Assembly: GCA_020718845.1 (NCBI GenBank)
Contig: DYRG01000018.1
Location: forward strand, 1 to 52,254
Length of the DNA stretch: 52,254 nucleotides
Reading direction: 5' to 3'
DNA from: Thiomargarita sp.
Lineage (GTDB): Bacteria; Pseudomonadota; Gammaproteobacteria; Beggiatoales; Beggiatoaceae
Part shown: positions 25,307 through 38,205 of the stretch, piece by piece
Layout of the letters: each line of letters begins with the position of its first letter
Position numbering within the stretch: the first letter of the stretch is position 1
Notes under the pieces: model-generated
Databases searched by the model: none
Seen by the model: the letters and a program-made list of their open reading frames with translations, nothing else
Told to the model about the DNA's origin: nothing
Position numbers and translations under genes: made by a program

Positions 25307-26152
25307 TCAAAGGTTTTTAATTTTCTCTAACTCCAATTGAGAAAATCCCGTTGTTTTGATAATTAACGACATTTCTAAACCCGCCGCTAATAAGTTTTTT
25401 GCTATTTCTAAACGGGTTTCTTCTTTTCCCTCTTGTTTTCCCTGAGAACGTGCTAATTCAATTGAACCTTGCTGTAATCTTATGAAATCATGACGTTTTT
25501 CTTGGAGTTCTAATTCTGCACGACTTAAACTCGCAGTATTTGCAATCGTAAAAGCCTGTTGAATTTCTTGATTATTTTGTAGAGTTTCAGGAATATATTC
25601 TAAACTTCCTGCATTTTTAACGAAATAAATCCATTTGTCGGTAATGTTAGTTAATTCTTGATCGGTTTTGAGAAACTTAGGTAATTCGACAAATACCAAT
25701 TGAATATCATCTGAATAATTAATTAAATGATTTTTCTCTAATAATTTGAAAGTGCTCATAATGTCTTTCAAATCGTCAAACATGACAAAATCCGTAATCG
25801 TTAATGCAACCACTGGATTAAGCAAATGATATTTCTCACCTTTTAATAATTGAGTTGAATAGGATTTTGCTGCATTATATAAAATTCTCTTTTCAAATCC
25901 TTCCACATTTAAGACTTGCATTTCAATGATTACTTTAGTTTGATTTGAAAGAACTGCTTTCACATCGACAAAGGTATCTTTCATGCCTTGTAATAAAGGA
26001 ATTTGATAGGGATCGACAATGGTTAACTCAGTGATTTTCTCACCATTGAAATCGAGCAACGCATTTAAGAAGCTGATTAAAATTGATTTAGATTGCTCAC
26101 TTCCAAACACTTTCTTAAACGCATAATCAGTTTTTACATCTAAAAATTGCAT
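25307..26152 (-). CDS. Rpn family PD-(D/E)XK nuclease (putative transposase-like)
   Basis: Rpn proteins are recombination-promoting nucleases often labelled transposases. The 281-residue protein opens with FLDVKTDYAFKKVFGSE, a family hallmark. The nuclease core has the acidic residue in DTFVDVKAVL and the E-x-Q motif in VIIEMQV (about residues 65-95), followed by NAAKSYSTQLLKGEKYH. A charged C-terminal helix contains RSQGKQEGKEETRLEIAKNL. I chose the ATG at 26152, preceded by GTGAGA, over the GTG at 26164. It converges on ntrY with a 2-base gap and is divergent from mlaA. Such genes are often multicopy. Confidence 0.9.
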   Translation of the reverse strand: MQFLDVKTDYAFKKVFGSEQSKSILISFLNALLDFNGEKITELTIVDPYQIPLLQGMKDTFVDVKAVLSNQTKVIIEMQVLNVEGFEKRILYNAAKSYSTQLLKGEKYHLLNPVVALTITDFVMFDDLKDIMSTFKLLEKNHLINYSDDIQLVFVELPKFLKTDQELTNITDKWIYFVKNAGSLEYIPETLQNNQEIQQAFTIANTASLSRAELELQEKRHDFIRLQQGSIELARSQGKQEGKEETRLEIAKNLLAAGLEMSLIIKTTGFSQLELEKIKNL

Positions 26153-26299
26153 AATTTTTCTCACAAAAAACGTGTTTTGTAATTAGTGTAATGTGATGTT
26201 TTTAAGTATGCAAGGATTTAGTTTGTCAAATTTCTAAATTACCCGCATTGCCGTGAATCAGTTATAATTTGGAAAATATCGTGAAATCGGAGAAAAATA

Positions 26300-27965: not shown

Positions 27966-28081
27966 TATTTTCCCCGTAGAAACCCACTTCCTTTCCTAAT
28001 TGTTCGAAAAATTACCTAAGTCCTCAAAATCGACGTATAATTTTAGTTACTTTATATCCCCAAAACAAAAGGAGATTTTTT

Positions 28082-28498
28082 ATGAGTATGTCAGAAGAAG
28101 CGAAACGCCAACTTGGTGAATTTGTGAAGTTGCAAGTGTATGATGACAAATACATTGATCGCAAAGAAGAAAAGAAAATCTTAGAAGAAGCCATGAAAAG
28201 AAACATTTCTATCGATGACGCGCTTGCGGTAATGCGGTCGATTGCTTCCGCGCATGATTATGTGGTGGAACGCGATGTAGAAACTCGTTGCAAAGAAATG
28301 TTAGAACAGTTTGCTGGCGACGGCAAAGTCGATAAGAAAGAATTTGAAGATGCAGTTGGAATGTATAAAAAAGGTTCTCGTGGTCGCGTGCCTGAATCAG
28401 AAATCCGTCGCCGTTTGAAAAGCGTGATGATCGACCAAGGTTGGAAAGCTAAAGAAGGTGGTTTATTTAGTTCGAAATGGTTCTCTGAAATCTCTTAA
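28082..28498 (+). CDS. EF-hand/TerB-like small protein, paralogue 1
   Basis: I do not recognise a named family for this 138-residue, acidic, mostly helical soluble protein. Two acidic loops stand out: YDDKYIDRKEEKKILEEA near residues 20-37 and GDGKVDKKEFEDA near 78-90. They resemble EF-hand or TerB metal-binding loops. The C-terminus has GWKAKEGGLFSSKWFSEIS. AAGGAG 7 bases before the ATG is a strong ribosome site. The next gene is a paralogue of exactly the same length that keeps the same opening (KRQLGEF, KLQVYDDKYIDR) and ending (KEGGLF, SKWFSEI), so the pair is a tandem duplication. The gene lies about 120 bases after the 6S RNA. Confidence 0.85.
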   Translation: MSMSEEAKRQLGEFVKLQVYDDKYIDRKEEKKILEEAMKRNISIDDALAVMRSIASAHDYVVERDVETRCKEMLEQFAGDGKVDKKEFEDAVGMYKKGSRGRVPESEIRRRLKSVMIDQGWKAKEGGLFSSKWFSEIS

Positions 28499-28510
28499 TA
28501 TTCAATGAGT

Positions 28511-28538
28511 TAAAAGCCCTCTTCGGAGGGTTTTGTTT
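28511..28538 (+). terminator. Terminator with UUCG tetraloop
   Basis: CCCTC (28517-28521), loop TTCG, GAGGG (28526-28530), extended by A-T pairs and followed by TTTTGTTTT. It sits between the two paralogues, so it should cut most readthrough from the first copy into the second. Confidence 0.85.
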
Positions 28539-28551
28539 TATGGAGGAAGGT

Positions 28552-28968
28552 ATGAGTATGTCCGATGAAATGAAACGCCAATTAGGCGAATTTATCAAAT
28601 TACAAGTGTATGATGACAAATACATTGATCGCGCCGAAGAAAAGAATATTCTCTCTGAAGCACTTAAAAGAAATATCCCCATCGATGAAGCATTAGCGGT
28701 GATGCGTCAAATCGCTGACACAAATGATTATGTCGTTGAACGCGACGTTGAAAATCAAGCCAAAGAAATGTTAGAACAATTTGCAAACAACGACGGCAAA
28801 ATCGACAAAAAAGAATTTGAAACCGCATTCGGTATTTATAAAAAAGCTACTCGCGGACGAGTTTCTGATATTAAGGCAAAAAAATGCTTAAAAGACATTA
28901 TTTTAAGTAATGGCTGGAAAGTCAAAGAAGGCGGTTTGTTTGGCTCGAAGTGGTTTTCTGAAATTTAA
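28552..28968 (+). CDS. EF-hand/TerB-like small protein, paralogue 2
   Basis: This is the second tandem copy, 138 residues from the ATG at 28552, with GGAGGAAGG just upstream. An ATG at 28540 is in frame but gives extra residues without a counterpart in copy 1. The two acidic loops are kept (YDDKYIDRAEEKNILSEA and NDGKIDKKEFETA), as is the tail GLFGSKWFSEI. The middle (near residues 95-120) has diverged more than the ends. A terminator separates the copies, so each may be expressed on its own. Function unknown; calcium or other metal binding is a guess from the loops. Confidence 0.85.
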   Translation: MSMSDEMKRQLGEFIKLQVYDDKYIDRAEEKNILSEALKRNIPIDEALAVMRQIADTNDYVVERDVENQAKEMLEQFANNDGKIDKKEFETAFGIYKKATRGRVSDIKAKKCLKDIILSNGWKVKEGGLFGSKWFSEI

Positions 28969-29096: not shown

Positions 29097-31475
29097 ATGT
29101 TTTTCAAAAAAGCAACGCCATCGCGCGCCAAAACTAAAAATACTCGTGCGCCCGCGCCTAAACAGCCGTCGCCCTCTAAAAAATCCAATACATTCATGCG
29201 GATATTTCGCTGGGCGTTAGCGTTCGTTATTTTAATTCCTAGCCTTTCTTATACGATTTCTTTAGATACCGAAGTGCGCAACCAATTTGAAGGCAAGCGT
29301 TGGGCGTTGCCTGCGCGGGTGTTTGCGCGACCTTTAGAACTTTACCCTGGTTTGAGTTTGAATCCAAAGGATTTCCAATACGAATTAGAAAGCCTTGAAT
29401 ATCACTCGCAAGAAGAAAAACCTCAGCAAACGGGCGAATTTCATCGTAAAGGAAATGATTTCTATTTGGTGACACGTTCCTTTAAATTTTGGGATAGCGA
29501 AGAGCCCGCGCGTAAAATCCGCATTCGATTTGACGGCAATAAAATTGAAACCATTGCAGATTTAGAGACTCGAGAGTATTTGAACTTAGTTCGACTCGAT
29601 CCCGTTCTGATTGGAAAAATCTATCCCACGCATAAAGAAGATCGGATTTTAGCCAAACTAGATGAAGTTCCTCCGCATTTAGTAAAAGCCTTATTGTCGA
29701 TGGAAGACCGCTATTTCTACGATCATAGTGGAATTAGTTTGCGAGGCTTAGGACGTGCGATGTTTGTGAACCTTAAAAGTATGTCGTGGTCACAAGGCGG
29801 AAGTACCTTAACGCAACAGTTAATCAAAAACCATTTCTTAACTTCTGAAAAAACCATTCACCGTAAATTAAAAGAAGCATTAATGGCATTATTGCTTGAG
29901 TTTCATTACACCAAAAAAGAAATCTTAGAAGCCTATTTGAATGAAGTGTATTTGGGACAAGAAGGCGATTATGGCATTCACGGAATGGGTTTGGCGGCAC
30001 AATTTTATTTCGGTCGTCCTTTAAATCAACTCACACTTCCTCAATCGGCATTGCTAATTGGATTAGTGCGTGGGGCTTCAAAATACAATCCCAGAAAATA
30101 TCCAGATCGGGCAATTGAACGTCGTAACCTTGTGTTATCACAGATGTTTTCGCAAGGTATGATTACCAAAGAACAACACGATCAAGGGCATTCTGCACCA
30201 TTGGAAGTGAGTGAAGAAGCACCGAAAAGTTCCTCTCCATATCCCGCATTTCTGGAATTAGTAAGAAGACAATTAAAACGTGATTACAAAGAACAAGATT
30301 TGCAATCAGAAGGATTACAAGTTTTTACGACACTTGATCCTATTCGCCAACATCAAGCGGAGAAAGCCTTAACTGTTCAAGTTAAGAAATTAGAACGAGA
30401 GAATGCACATTTGAGAAAACGTTTAGATTCAGCGATAATTGCAACCTCACCATCGAGTGGAGAAATTCTCGCGTTAGTCGGTGGAAAAAATACTGAATTT
30501 GAAGGTTTCAATCGTGCATTAGATGCGTTGCGTCCGATTGGTTCATTGATTAAACCCGCAATTTATTTGACAGCCTTAGAAAATAGCAAAAAATATTCTC
30601 TAATTTCACCGTTAAATGATCGTAGTTTAGAATGGAAGATCAAAGAAACCAAACAAATTTGGTCGCCGAAAAACTATGACGGTAAAGAACACGGCACGGT
30701 TACTTTAAACAAAGCGTTAATGAATTCCTATAACTTGGCAGCAGTGCAACTGGGTCGACAATTAGGATTGGAAAAAGTTAAAGATACCTTATATCGTTTG
30801 GGTATTGAACGCGAATTATCTACTTATCCGTCGATGTTGTTAGGAAGTCTTGCGTTGACACCAATGGAAGTCACCCAAATGTATCAAACGATTGCGAGCG
30901 GCGGATCGAGAGTGCCGTTGCGAGGAATTCGAGAAGTCACCGCGCACGATGGAAAACCTTTGTCGCGTTATCCGTTAAATTCTGAGCAAGCCTTTGATGC
31001 TGCGAGTGTTTTTGTGTTAAGTTACGGAATGCAAAACGTCATTCGATACGGCACAGGGCGCGATGTCGCCAAAGAAATGATCCCCCGTGACTGGCGTTTG
31101 GCGGGCAAAACTGGCACAACCAACGAATATCGAGATAGTTGGTTTGCGGGATTTGGGGGCGATGTGTTGGCGGTGGTGTGGATGGGGCGCGACGACAATA
31201 AATCAACTGGCTTAACAGGCGGCGGCGGCGCGATGCGAGTGTGGGGCGAATTTATGAAAAACACCCGCCCGCAATCTTTAAGCAATCAATTACCCGAACG
31301 CACCGAATGGCGTTATGTGGGGGCGAAAGCGGGACGAGGCAAAATTCCCATCATTATCAATCATGAACGCGACAGCGAAACCGTCAAAGCGGCATTAGCG
31401 GCGGCTGAAGCGGCGGAAGAAGAAAAAAATTCCCAAAACAGCGTCGACGATGATGAATCCGAAAAATCCGAATAA
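29097..31475 (+). CDS. mrcB: Penicillin-binding protein 1B (bifunctional peptidoglycan synthase)
   Basis: PBP1b polymerises glycan strands and cross-links peptides. The 792-residue protein has a basic Pro/Lys-rich cytoplasmic tail, a membrane helix at about 34-54 and a UB2H-like domain to about 145. The GT51 transglycosylase has SMEDRYFYDHSG, GGSTLTQQLIKNHFL and YLNEVYLGQ. The transpeptidase has the nucleophile serine in RPIGSLIKP, SYN in LMNSYNLAAVQLG and KTG in LAGKTGTTNEYRDSWFAG. The C-terminus ends in an acidic tail. A toxin-antitoxin module follows at 31544; its right-hand flank carries a partial copy of the mrcB 3' end (see repeat). Confidence 0.97.
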   Translation: MFFKKATPSRAKTKNTRAPAPKQPSPSKKSNTFMRIFRWALAFVILIPSLSYTISLDTEVRNQFEGKRWALPARVFARPLELYPGLSLNPKDFQYELESLEYHSQEEKPQQTGEFHRKGNDFYLVTRSFKFWDSEEPARKIRIRFDGNKIETIADLETREYLNLVRLDPVLIGKIYPTHKEDRILAKLDEVPPHLVKALLSMEDRYFYDHSGISLRGLGRAMFVNLKSMSWSQGGSTLTQQLIKNHFLTSEKTIHRKLKEALMALLLEFHYTKKEILEAYLNEVYLGQEGDYGIHGMGLAAQFYFGRPLNQLTLPQSALLIGLVRGASKYNPRKYPDRAIERRNLVLSQMFSQGMITKEQHDQGHSAPLEVSEEAPKSSSPYPAFLELVRRQLKRDYKEQDLQSEGLQVFTTLDPIRQHQAEKALTVQVKKLERENAHLRKRLDSAIIATSPSSGEILALVGGKNTEFEGFNRALDALRPIGSLIKPAIYLTALENSKKYSLISPLNDRSLEWKIKETKQIWSPKNYDGKEHGTVTLNKALMNSYNLAAVQLGRQLGLEKVKDTLYRLGIERELSTYPSMLLGSLALTPMEVTQMYQTIASGGSRVPLRGIREVTAHDGKPLSRYPLNSEQAFDAASVFVLSYGMQNVIRYGTGRDVAKEMIPRDWRLAGKTGTTNEYRDSWFAGFGGDVLAVVWMGRDDNKSTGLTGGGGAMRVWGEFMKNTRPQSLSNQLPERTEWRYVGAKAGRGKIPIIINHERDSETVKAALAAAEAAEEEKNSQNSVDDDESEKSE

Positions 31476-31543
31476 AATATGTTAGTCGTTATTTTGCATA
31501 ATCCATTGATTTTATTTGATTTTTTAAGAGGAGGTTAAAAATA

Positions 31544-31768
31544 ATGAATTTATCGATTGAGGAACTCACGACAACTTTTTGCAGTTTGCCAGAGCAAGAT
31601 CAACAGGAAGTTTTTGATTTTATGTATTTTCTAAAAACCAAATCGGCGAGAGTGCAAACGAAACATTACAAACCATTAAAATTAGGTTTGTTCAAAGGAC
31701 AAATAAGAATGAGCAATGATTTCAATGAACCCTTACCCGATAGTTTTTGGTTAGAAGGAAAACTGTGA
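31544..31768 (+). CDS. DUF2281/VapB-like antitoxin
   Basis: The 74-residue protein begins with SIEELTTTFCSLPEQDQQEV and continues VFDFMYFLKTKS, the typical DUF2281 N-terminal helices. The C-terminal part has KLGLFKGQIRMSNDFNEPLP, then DSFW. This C-terminal MSxDFxxPLP pattern is characteristic of antitoxins paired with PIN-domain toxins. GAGGAGG about 9 bases upstream is a strong ribosome site. The last bases (GTGA) are shared with the toxin start. It should bind and neutralise the PIN toxin and repress the operon. Confidence 0.88.
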   Translation: MNLSIEELTTTFCSLPEQDQQEVFDFMYFLKTKSARVQTKHYKPLKLGLFKGQIRMSNDFNEPLPDSFWLEGKL

Positions 31769-32151
31769 AATTATTGCTCGATACTCATGCTTTTATTTGG
31801 CTTAACGATAATCCATTGCAACTCTCTGAAAAAATCATTGCAATGTGTTCTTCAGGAGAGCATAAATTTTTCTTGAGTATTGTATCAGCATGGGAAATGC
31901 AAATTAAATCTCAATTAGGAAAGCTAGATTTATCTATGCCAGTTAGAGAGTTAATAGAAACGAATATTAATGAAAATAATATTTATTTGTTACCAATTAC
32001 GTTATCAGATATTGAACAACTAGAAAAGCTACCATTACATCACAAAGACCCGTTTGACCGTATAATAATTGCTCAAGCAATGCTTGGTGATTTTACAATT
32101 GTTAGCATAGATAGTGCTTTTGCTAATTATGATGTTCCTGTGATTTGGTGA
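31765..32151 (+). CDS. VapC-like PIN-domain ribonuclease toxin
   Basis: The protein is 128 residues from the GTG at 31765, which overlaps the antitoxin stop by 4 bases. A TTG at 31747 would only add residues read in another frame inside the antitoxin gene. The PIN acidic residues are in place: Asp6 (LLLDTHAFIW), Glu44 (SAWEMQIK), Asp98 (DPFDRIIIAQA) and Asp116 (SIDSAF). VapC toxins cleave tRNA or rRNA when the antitoxin is lost. The module lies between mrcB and a TPR gene. Confidence 0.9.
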   Translation: MKLLLDTHAFIWLNDNPLQLSEKIIAMCSSGEHKFFLSIVSAWEMQIKSQLGKLDLSMPVRELIETNINENNIYLLPITLSDIEQLEKLPLHHKDPFDRIIIAQAMLGDFTIVSIDSAFANYDVPVIW

Positions 32152-32226
32152 ATTTAATAATGACGAGTGAAATGTTGAAATGAAGAAGAAAAATTCTCAA
32201 ACAACTCAGAAAAGCCAGAATAAAAT

Positions 32227-32631
32227 ATGCTTAAATATCATTTGCTTATAATGTGGATGGGGATATTTTCCCCCCAATGGATCAGTGCCGAACCATCAAA
32301 TGCGGTGTCCGCGCTGCTCAAAGAATCCCGCGACGAATACGCCCAAAAACGCTACGAACAATCGGCGGCATTATTAGAGCGGGCGTTGCGCATCGAACCT
32401 CGCAATTCGATTTTGTGGCATGATTTGGCGGGCGTGCGGTTGGAACAAGAAGAATGGCGCAAAGCAATGAGTTTGGCAGCGCGTTCAAATGAATTATCGG
32501 GCGATAACAAATGGTTACGCATTCGAAACTGGACAATTATCTCGTTGGCGTGCAAAGGTCTCAATGATAAAAATTGCGTCAAAGATGCTCAAAGTCGTGC
32601 GCAATCCATCGCTAATGGTATTAATAAGTAA
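32227..32631 (+). CDS. Secreted TPR protein
   Basis: The 134-residue protein has a short signal peptide (MLKYHLLIMWMGIFSPQW, cleavage probably after ISA). One or two tetratricopeptide repeats follow (YAQKRYEQSAALLERALRIE, then ILWHDLAGVRLEQEEW). Small TPR proteins after mrcB are common in gammaproteobacteria and may serve the cell-wall synthase, though that is inference. The start lies in the second copy of the mrcB-end repeat (AATAAAATATG). This suggests that the gene originally began directly after mrcB. gspC follows without a gap. Confidence 0.8.
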   Translation: MLKYHLLIMWMGIFSPQWISAEPSNAVSALLKESRDEYAQKRYEQSAALLERALRIEPRNSILWHDLAGVRLEQEEWRKAMSLAARSNELSGDNKWLRIRNWTIISLACKGLNDKNCVKDAQSRAQSIANGINK

Positions 32632-33432
32632 ATGAATTTATTGCGTTTTCCGCTATTTACCCTCAATCTTTTCTTAGCAGTTTTGTTGGGTTTTTTTGTG
32701 ACGCGCTTGTTTTTGCCCCAATTGCCTATTTTCCCAACTGCCCCGCCTGTTTTAAAAAACGAATTAAATCAACGAGTTAAAATAGATATTTCTCCGCTTT
32801 TAAATCGACGGTGGTTTGGACAATTGCCTTCAAACCCTATAAAAAACGTTCAACTCCCTGAAACTGCTCTAAATTTAACCTTGCAAGGCATACTTTACAG
32901 CGACGATCCGCAACAAACAAAAGCAATCATCGCGGGATCGGACAATAAAAGTGCCTTGCATCGAATTGGACAAACTATTCAAGGTGCTGTTTTACAAGAG
33001 ATTTTCCCCGATCGGGTGATTTTACAGCGTAATGGAATTCAAGAAACGTTAAAACTCAAAAAAGAAACCACGACTTCTTCTGAAAGTTCCTCACAAGTTT
33101 CTCCCGCAGTTTCTCAACCACAAATTAACTTAAAAGATTACCGCCAACAACTCATCGACAAACCCACCAATTTAAGCAAAGTTGTTCGCATCAAACCATC
33201 CGAAACCAATGGAAAATTAGCGGGTTATGAATTAAATGCGGGTAATGATCCTCAAATATTTCAACAGCTTGGCTTTCAAAATGGCGATATTGCGATTAAA
33301 ATCAATGACATACCTTTAGATGTGCCGACCCAAAGTTTCAATGCTTTGCAACAATTATCCTCTGCAAAAATGCTCAAAGTTGATATTTTACGCAAAGGCG
33401 TTCCTCAAACTATTTCAATCAATCTCAATTAA
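32632..33432 (+). CDS. gspC: GspC-like type II secretion inner-membrane protein with PDZ domain
   Basis: The 266-residue protein has one N-terminal membrane helix (about 8-28). The homology region follows (LNLTLQGILYSDDPQQTKAI, then IIAGSDN and GAVLQEIFPDRVILQRNG), which contacts the GspD secretin in known systems. A Ser/Thr-rich linker precedes a C-terminal PDZ domain (FQQLGFQNGDIAIKINDIPL). This is the GspC layout. The rest of the gsp cluster is not in the window. It sits between the TPR gene and a flippase gene, each abutting the next, so it is probably an orphan or detached gspC gene. Confidence 0.85.
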   Translation: MNLLRFPLFTLNLFLAVLLGFFVTRLFLPQLPIFPTAPPVLKNELNQRVKIDISPLLNRRWFGQLPSNPIKNVQLPETALNLTLQGILYSDDPQQTKAIIAGSDNKSALHRIGQTIQGAVLQEIFPDRVILQRNGIQETLKLKKETTTSSESSSQVSPAVSQPQINLKDYRQQLIDKPTNLSKVVRIKPSETNGKLAGYELNAGNDPQIFQQLGFQNGDIAIKINDIPLDVPTQSFNALQQLSSAKMLKVDILRKGVPQTISINLN

Positions 33433-37626: not shown

Positions 37627-38205
37627 ATGGGACTTGCATTAGAACTTATGAGTGAAAGCGCGTATTTAGCATTTGAAAAAGTGAGCAAAATCAAACACGA
37701 ATATGTATGCGGTCGGGTTTTTGCAATGGCGGGAACAAGCAAAAAACACAATAAAATTTCTTTAAATGTTGGTTTTCAATGTCGACAAGCCGCTAGAAAT
37801 ACAAATTGTGAAGTGTATATTGCTGATGTTAAACTGAAAATTGCACATCGAGAAAATTATTATTATCCCGATGTGATGGTCGGTTGTGAAGAAGAAAATA
37901 ATGATTATTTTATAGAGAAACCGTGTATTTTAGTTGAGGTAACTTCTAAATCCACAGAAACCATTGATCGGCGAGAAAAATTAAGTTCTTATAAAAGCAT
38001 TGAATCATTGCAAACGTATTTAATTGTTTCTCAAGAAATAATGTTTATAGAAGCATATCAACGGCAACAACAAACTTGGTTAATGACACATTACACGCAA
38101 CCCAATGAATTTATTGAATTACCTTGTTTAAATACAAATATATCTGTTGAAGAAATTTACGAATCAATCGATATTTCTAATCATCAATTTAGCAGTGAAA
38201 CATAA
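37627..38205 (+). CDS. Uma2/DUF820 family putative endonuclease
   Basis: Uma2 proteins are PD-(D/E)XK-fold proteins of uncertain biological role, abundant in cyanobacteria and in large sulfur bacteria. The 192-residue protein has the core pattern YYYPDVMVGC (acidic residue) and ILVEVTSKSTETIDRREKL (E-x-x-S/K region). KHEYVCGRVFAMAGTSKKHN at residues about 23-42 is also typical. It lies between prmB and the restriction-modification pair with short gaps. No link to the R-M system can be shown beyond adjacency. Confidence 0.9.
   Translation: MGLALELMSESAYLAFEKVSKIKHEYVCGRVFAMAGTSKKHNKISLNVGFQCRQAARNTNCEVYIADVKLKIAHRENYYYPDVMVGCEEENNDYFIEKPCILVEVTSKSTETIDRREKLSSYKSIESLQTYLIVSQEIMFIEAYQRQQQTWLMTHYTQPNEFIELPCLNTNISVEEIYESIDISNHQFSSET

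Follow-up and report, generated by a model that had tools for sequence, protein, structure and literature searches.

The window analysed here, the whole 52,254-base stretch of contig DYRG01000018.1 from Thiomargarita sp. (assembly GCA_020718845.1), contains a small toxin-antitoxin (TA) pair lodged between mrcB, the gene for PBP1b, and a gene encoding a TPR protein. A shortened copy of the mrcB 3' end recurs beyond the toxin gene and terminates in the start codon of the TPR gene. The locus is organized as follows:

29097–31475, forward strand: mrcB (PBP1b; TIGR02071 PBP_1b, 879 bits; PF00912, PF14814, PF00905), whose present 3' end is the left copy
31416–31481, forward strand: left copy, the final 60 bases of mrcB including the stop, then AATATG (local alignment)
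31470–31481, forward strand: left outer edge, GAATAAAATATG (exact 12-mer match)
31482–31543, forward strand: AT-rich module leader with a putative ribosome-binding-site-like motif, AGAGGAGGT (read from the sequence)
31544–31768, forward strand: antitoxin gene, 74 aa, DUF2281/VapB-like (PF10047, E 5.7e-10; NF050009 TA_VapB, 55.6 bits, under the cut-off of 60)
31765–32151, forward strand: vapC-like toxin gene, PIN domain, 128 aa (PF01850, E 8.2e-11)
32182–32229, forward strand: right copy, a shortened mrcB 3' end terminating in the TPR start codon (local alignment)
32218–32229, forward strand: right outer edge, GAATAAAATATG (exact 12-mer match; the TPR start is the ATG at 32227)
32227–32631, forward strand: TPR protein, 134 aa (PF14559), by adjacency in relatives the ancestral next neighbour of mrcB
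32632–33432, forward strand: GspC-like type II secretion gene, next after the TPR gene (TIGR01713, 137.7 bits; PF11356)

The TA pair and its flanking repeat

The pair between the two copies, which an earlier note on this DNA had called VapBC-like, is a VapBC-type TA system according to family models, with toxicity and addiction as predicted properties. It bears the hallmarks of type II VapBC systems: a PIN toxin with conserved acids (D6, E44, D95, D98, and D116, conserved in 139–141 of 142 aligned sequences, the query counted) and a small upstream antitoxin gene whose stop overlaps the GTG start of vapC at 31765. Gene order, overlap, and PIN acidic residues are those of VapBC systems with DUF2281-family antitoxins, from which it differs by an antitoxin scoring under the NCBIfam cut-off and by its interest, which lies in the mode of insertion. 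The VapC protein itself had no match in the NCBIfam model search and none among solved structures at E 0.01. Apart from the antitoxin and vapC, the insert of ~700 bases between the copies has no frame of at least 50 aa and no transposase, recombinase, or integrase, and none of the inverted repeat pairs found in the repeat search brackets the module.

The best local alignment (31416–31481 against 32182–32229) bears out the earlier report of a shortened mrcB end before the TPR gene, coordinates included, as well as the identical GAATAAAATATG at both outer edges; the left copy, described there as the last 66 bases of mrcB, proved correctly placed but consists of 60 bases of the gene (TAA at 31473–31475) plus AATATG. 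The two arms, of 66 and 48 bases, align with gaps and form direct repeats on both sides of the insert, and with wider flanks the gapped alignment extends ~20 bases beyond both ATGs. One family of the repeat search (D1) spans the final 24 bases of the left copy. Read in the mrcB frame, the right copy compares as EEEKFSNNSEKPE-stop versus EEEKNSQNSVDDDESEKSE-stop, the 18-base length difference keeping the frame. Since the ATG of the left AATATG matches the TPR start codon, the repeated unit resembles a copied mrcB/TPR junction with a 3-base gap.

Within the window GAATAAAATATG occurs only at the two edges (0.02 expected), and in the genome (2,979,191 bases, both strands) it occurs five times, two of them here, against one occurrence of the reversed control. 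Shuffled 250-base flanks never reached the observed score in 2,000 trials (Gumbel 2e-4), or three times with lenient scoring (1e-3); for the exact 72/78-base segments the figures were 3 of 10,000 (1e-3) and, leniently, 9 of 10,000 (4e-3). When gene ends and leaders of the window are paired without overlap (2,275 pairs), this one ranks first, with a score of 37; elsewhere in the window, stretches 750 bases apart score up to 42 (around 39151). On sequence grounds alone, the repeat is good evidence of a copied gene end, short of decisive, and it is strengthened by its location, beyond the vapC stop and up to the next start codon, which it includes.

The junction in relatives and the source of the pair

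The earlier note had supposed that mrcB was ancestrally followed directly by the TPR gene. Comparison with distant relatives supports this: in 18 of the 34 other genomes of the family with a TPR match, mrcB lies directly upstream on the same strand and the module is absent, 13 of these 18 junctions having been read directly. The mrcB and TPR matches are less than 570 bases apart in 17 of the 18, which leaves no room for the 608-base pair, and the widest junction (~1.4 kb, in G017) has no VapC match and no TA-like frame by eye. Among 30 TPR loci, only the window's own has a VapC match; no relative with the module at this junction was found, and thus none with the module there in the absence of the repeats, the arrangement that the note had named as contradicting it. 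The mrcB protein is 49–59% identical to its family counterparts, and because the mrcB tails diverge beyond alignment, copy number cannot be counted in these relatives. A TPR scan of genome contigs recovered no close relative of the window, and megablast no plasmid match to it.

The TA pair itself looks foreign and recently acquired. Between mid-antitoxin and the vapC stop (31670–32149) it is 84% identical in DNA over 480 bases to a contig of a Methylococcaceae metagenome-assembled genome (L114), where the match terminates at the vapC stop and vapC is split into two frames; this DNA identity is to be set against the at most 59% protein identity of mrcB within the family. A second match to the pair (L072) covers 329 bases. 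Among the candidates listed from 368 other genomes of the class, at most two scored per genome, none matched the module DNA at E 1e-6. One 31-base stretch upstream of the antitoxin matches contig C64, where by eye it lies before an iscU-like gene; the match is short and AT-rich and was set aside. Elsewhere in the same genome, positions 1540–1770 of contig C110 (L032, G000) carry, as judged by eye, an orphan antitoxin, a DUF2281-like frame after which just the first codons of a vapC remain, and at another locus (L038) the flanks share a 52-base repeat of dispersed appearance.

Gene-end copies and empty sites at other loci

We found 156 VapC loci, of which 130 were distinct with enough flank, and used as control 598 sufficiently long shifted positions of the same loci. 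Flank repeat scores of at least 35 occurred at 34 of the 130 loci versus 28 of the 598 shifted positions, and scores of at least 60 at 23 versus 20, respectively. By eye, many high scores reflect dispersed repeats (such as AGAAACCGGGTTTCT and stretches rich in GCGATCGC), which we left out of the gene-end cases; long intergenic repeats also occur in the window's family (L257–L259, L261, L263, and L271). Rows L061 and L062, which arose from an indexing artefact, were excluded. When gene ends were tested specifically (copy within 1.3 kb, score at least 40), 6 of 91 TA-followed ends had a copy, in all six beyond vapC, versus 6 of 312 other ends. The earlier note had proposed to look for the repeat beside other VapBC pairs, and the same anatomy, a whole gene with a copy of its 3' end past vapC, was indeed found at five loci. 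The gene is the methylmalonyl-CoA mutase gene, mcm (PF01642, TIGR00641), at L128 and L129, a convergent Uma2 gene (PF05685) at L125, a gene for an alpha-2-macroglobulin-like protein (PF17973) at L248 in Nostoc, and a convergent reverse transcriptase gene (PF00078) at L074, with a 70-base repeat across the stop and a VapC 63% identical to that of the window. At a further VapBC locus (L099), between nuoM-like and nuoN-like genes by eye, 31 bases from inside the downstream gene are copied right after the stop of the upstream gene.

Three of these loci have relatives with an empty site. At L183 and L187, which lack the pair, the mcm end and downstream DNA match the far copy and downstream DNA of L129 and L128, respectively, and this continuity shows that the original mcm end at both loci is the far copy. 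Likewise, the frame-broken far copy of L248 is continuous with the downstream DNA of the empty sites L273 and L274. The empty-site relatives of all three show that insertion kept the gene intact and displaced its original end. Among 29 other loci of the Nostoc family, a VapC match also lies within the retrieved flank at two (L284 and L291).

The far copy of L129 is itself a chimera of donor and host sequence, as would result from crossover or conversion inside the copy: its first 11 informative sites agree with the near copy and 11 of the next 12 with the empty site. The cassettes of L128 and L129 are 98.0% identical (643/656) versus 90.9% (1055/1160) for their mcm genes, and their downstream DNA is no more alike than shuffled sequence, which points to movement of the cassette between lineages at one site. 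The left mcm tail of L129 was considered as possibly unusually distant from its empty relative, a suggestion we dropped because the distance is within the ordinary range of species pairs; a donor origin of the left copy is therefore supported by the continuity of the right copy and by the L128/L129 cassette comparison.

In 80 genomes of the Anaerolineales family to which the organism of L129 belongs we obtained 76 mcm matches, 30 of these loci being read (one ending at the mcm stop). Tail copies were counted at 40 of the 76 loci, among them the cases we had started from; the downstream DNA available ranged from 470 to 10,923 bases. Eight of the 40 have strong copies, 11 in total and none farther than 2.5 kb from the mcm stop, and a ninth locus (L332) has one of only 28 bases. 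Of the 11 inserted stretches, nine carry TA genes or the remnant of an antitoxin: five Phd-VapC pairs (the L129 antitoxin belonging to PF02604), one PIN protein with an unclassified 71-aa partner, one DUF2281-PIN pair, one DUF2281 antitoxin remnant, and one MntA/HepT-like pair (PF01909, PF01934; NCBIfam matches under cut-off). The last lies between two mcm-end copies 0.5–1.7 kb past mcm (L336, in G450) and indicates that the pattern is wider than VapBC. On the reverse strand of contig C62 of G481 (L309), two stacked TA cassettes follow mcm, each with its own mcm-end copy behind it, in an arrangement resembling a cassette array. At L193 (G462), a TA-promoter-like stretch stands right after the mcm stop with no VapC match and may be, by eye, the scar of a lost cassette.

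Weighing the proposed insertion against its alternatives

We consider it probable (about 0.72) that a TA pair entered between mrcB and the TPR gene, accompanied by an additional mrcB 3' end, through a long target duplication and subsequent spread by recombination. Insertion with target duplication, or recombination keeping mrcB whole, was what the earlier note had put forward, and the other VapBC loci with empty sites support it; since the window has no close relative, both routes are possible there and the support comes by analogy. Along the same path as at those loci, the VapBC-type pair would have entered the junction with the extra gene end, mrcB staying whole because the near-side copy supplies its end and stop codon. 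The original mrcB end of the chromosome, probably the right copy, would have been pushed past vapC, still joined to the TPR gene and deprived of its coding role. The long target duplication would have arisen at the first insertion, as the founding step, and the duplicated end could then have acted as a portable arm for homologous recombination, with which the cassette may enter any genome possessing the gene, whatever its downstream DNA. Addiction would disfavour deletion between the direct repeats. More tentatively, and at somewhat less than even odds, unrelated small TA families may in general be transposase-free mobile cassettes that carry the 3' end of the gene in front of them, which leaves that gene whole when they arrive and serves as homology arm, move into unrelated downstream DNA, swap, and stack, their repeats being protected by addiction.

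Several observations weigh against such an insertion. In the window, the runner-up among the gene-end/leader pairs scores 35 versus 37 and uses the same A-rich leader, so that the repeat alone is moderate evidence; the locus also scored only 29 in the gene-end test, because its alignment needs six bases past the stop, and its genus is represented by a single genome in the set compared, with no close relative and hence no empty site at this locus. In the survey, 85 of the 91 TA-followed gene ends had no copy at score 40, and of the six that did, the one at L249 is internal and GC-rich, and L128 and L129 share one cassette. None of eight TA loci of Escherichia coli K-12 reached a score of 35 (best 29), so the pattern is not universal. 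At mcm, two of the 11 inserts are not TA genes (a sulfatase-like gene and an 85-aa frame belonging to no family), an antitoxin-like gene follows mcm at L349 with no tail copy, and the far copy of L128 is not a clean chimera, five near-like sites being followed by three empty-like, three near-like, and two that are neither.

Integrative elements that enter gene 3' ends restore the gene with their own copy and displace the original end. The main rival explanation, which we regard as unlikely, is site-specific integration of this kind, in which a trans-acting recombinase targets the gene 3' end and the cassette itself supplies the new end, much as with phages and integrative elements. Here too the gene seems to be whole through the copy of the element and its original end displaced; moreover, mcm copies start near −109 to −112 across cassettes of different TA families, and each stacked cassette of G481 has a tail copy after it. 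In contrast with such elements, the ~700-base insert of the window has no integrase or other recombinase. Copy boundaries are also found at −72, −75, −47, −96, and −104, the mcm linker upstream of −112 varies among species and may itself set the edge at about −110, the L129 crossover sits mid-copy, and different genomes use different genes.

Less probable still is convergence, by which A-rich Lys/Glu-coding sequence and a common stop/start context would have produced the likeness, the pair merely lying between two genes. The close runner-up with its shared leader and the nine lenient shuffles in 10,000 fit this explanation. The earlier note had recognized an A-rich low-complexity pattern as a threat to its proposal; the shuffles and the ranking make it unlikely, though the reuse of the leader by the runner-up leaves it some ground. 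The rarity of the identical 12-mer in the genome also argues against convergence, as does the position of the copy between vapC and the next start codon, like that of gene-end copies after vapC at other loci. We give very little credence to the alternative that the mrcB/TPR junction was first duplicated locally in tandem and that the TA pair arrived afterwards between the copies through some unrelated process: the same final structure would be expected, but two independent events at one spot are needed, whereas the arrangement with TA genes between copies is seen repeatedly.

The window is most likely one diverged case of an insertion mode known for restriction-modification (RM) systems and shown here for TA pairs, the original work on RM long target duplication being reportedly that of Nobusato et al. 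(2000, Gene 259:99) and Furuta et al. (2010, NAR 38:2428), as cited by others. In published accounts, RM insertion with long target duplication is described (PMC3031569, PMC3874152, PMC1643837, PMC2749054, PMC4978471), for RM systems of all types (PMC3031569) and with lengths of the order of 100 bp (PMC3874152). As portrayed there, these cases resemble ours: an addiction module has inserted although no mobile element is known to carry it, and long direct repeats of the target lie on its two sides. Ours differ in the kind of module, VapBC pairs of type II and, at mcm, MntA/HepT pairs that are type VII-like, and in their location at gene 3' ends; further features are stacked cassettes and, at three loci, a far copy that is the original end. 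Direct repeats flanking mycoplasma TA pairs have been reported as recombination scars (PMC8562856), for another TA family and with no gene-end copy or empty site in the text available. Integron TA cassettes, as described in PMC2654758, resemble the present ones in small size and stacking but not in the repeated element, which here is the neighbour gene's own end. Among the literature matches listed, considered by title and beginning of abstract, we recognized no description of gene-end copies at TA insertions. A 2016 FEMS paper reportedly deals with horizontal transfer of E. coli TA systems and may overlap.

TA pairs are scattered across bacterial chromosomes although they have no mobility gene of their own. 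If a copied gene end is the entry route for some of them, the travel of these smallest addiction modules could be tested by searching for copied gene ends and unoccupied sites, and the mode of insertion would be common to TA and RM systems. From the loci compared, gene-end-copy insertion by modules with no transposase of their own also seems to occur in unrelated bacteria.

Other genes occur around the region in the window. Upstream of mrcB, at 28081–28968, a small gene and its paralogue stand in tandem (138 and 142 aa; no Pfam family), their DNA being 77–78% identical across two stretches. On either side of the region lie a PD-(D/E)XK transposase-family gene (25307–26164, PF12784), a family whose proteins of the Rpn kind are recombination-promoting, and a Uma2 gene (37627–38205, PF05685).

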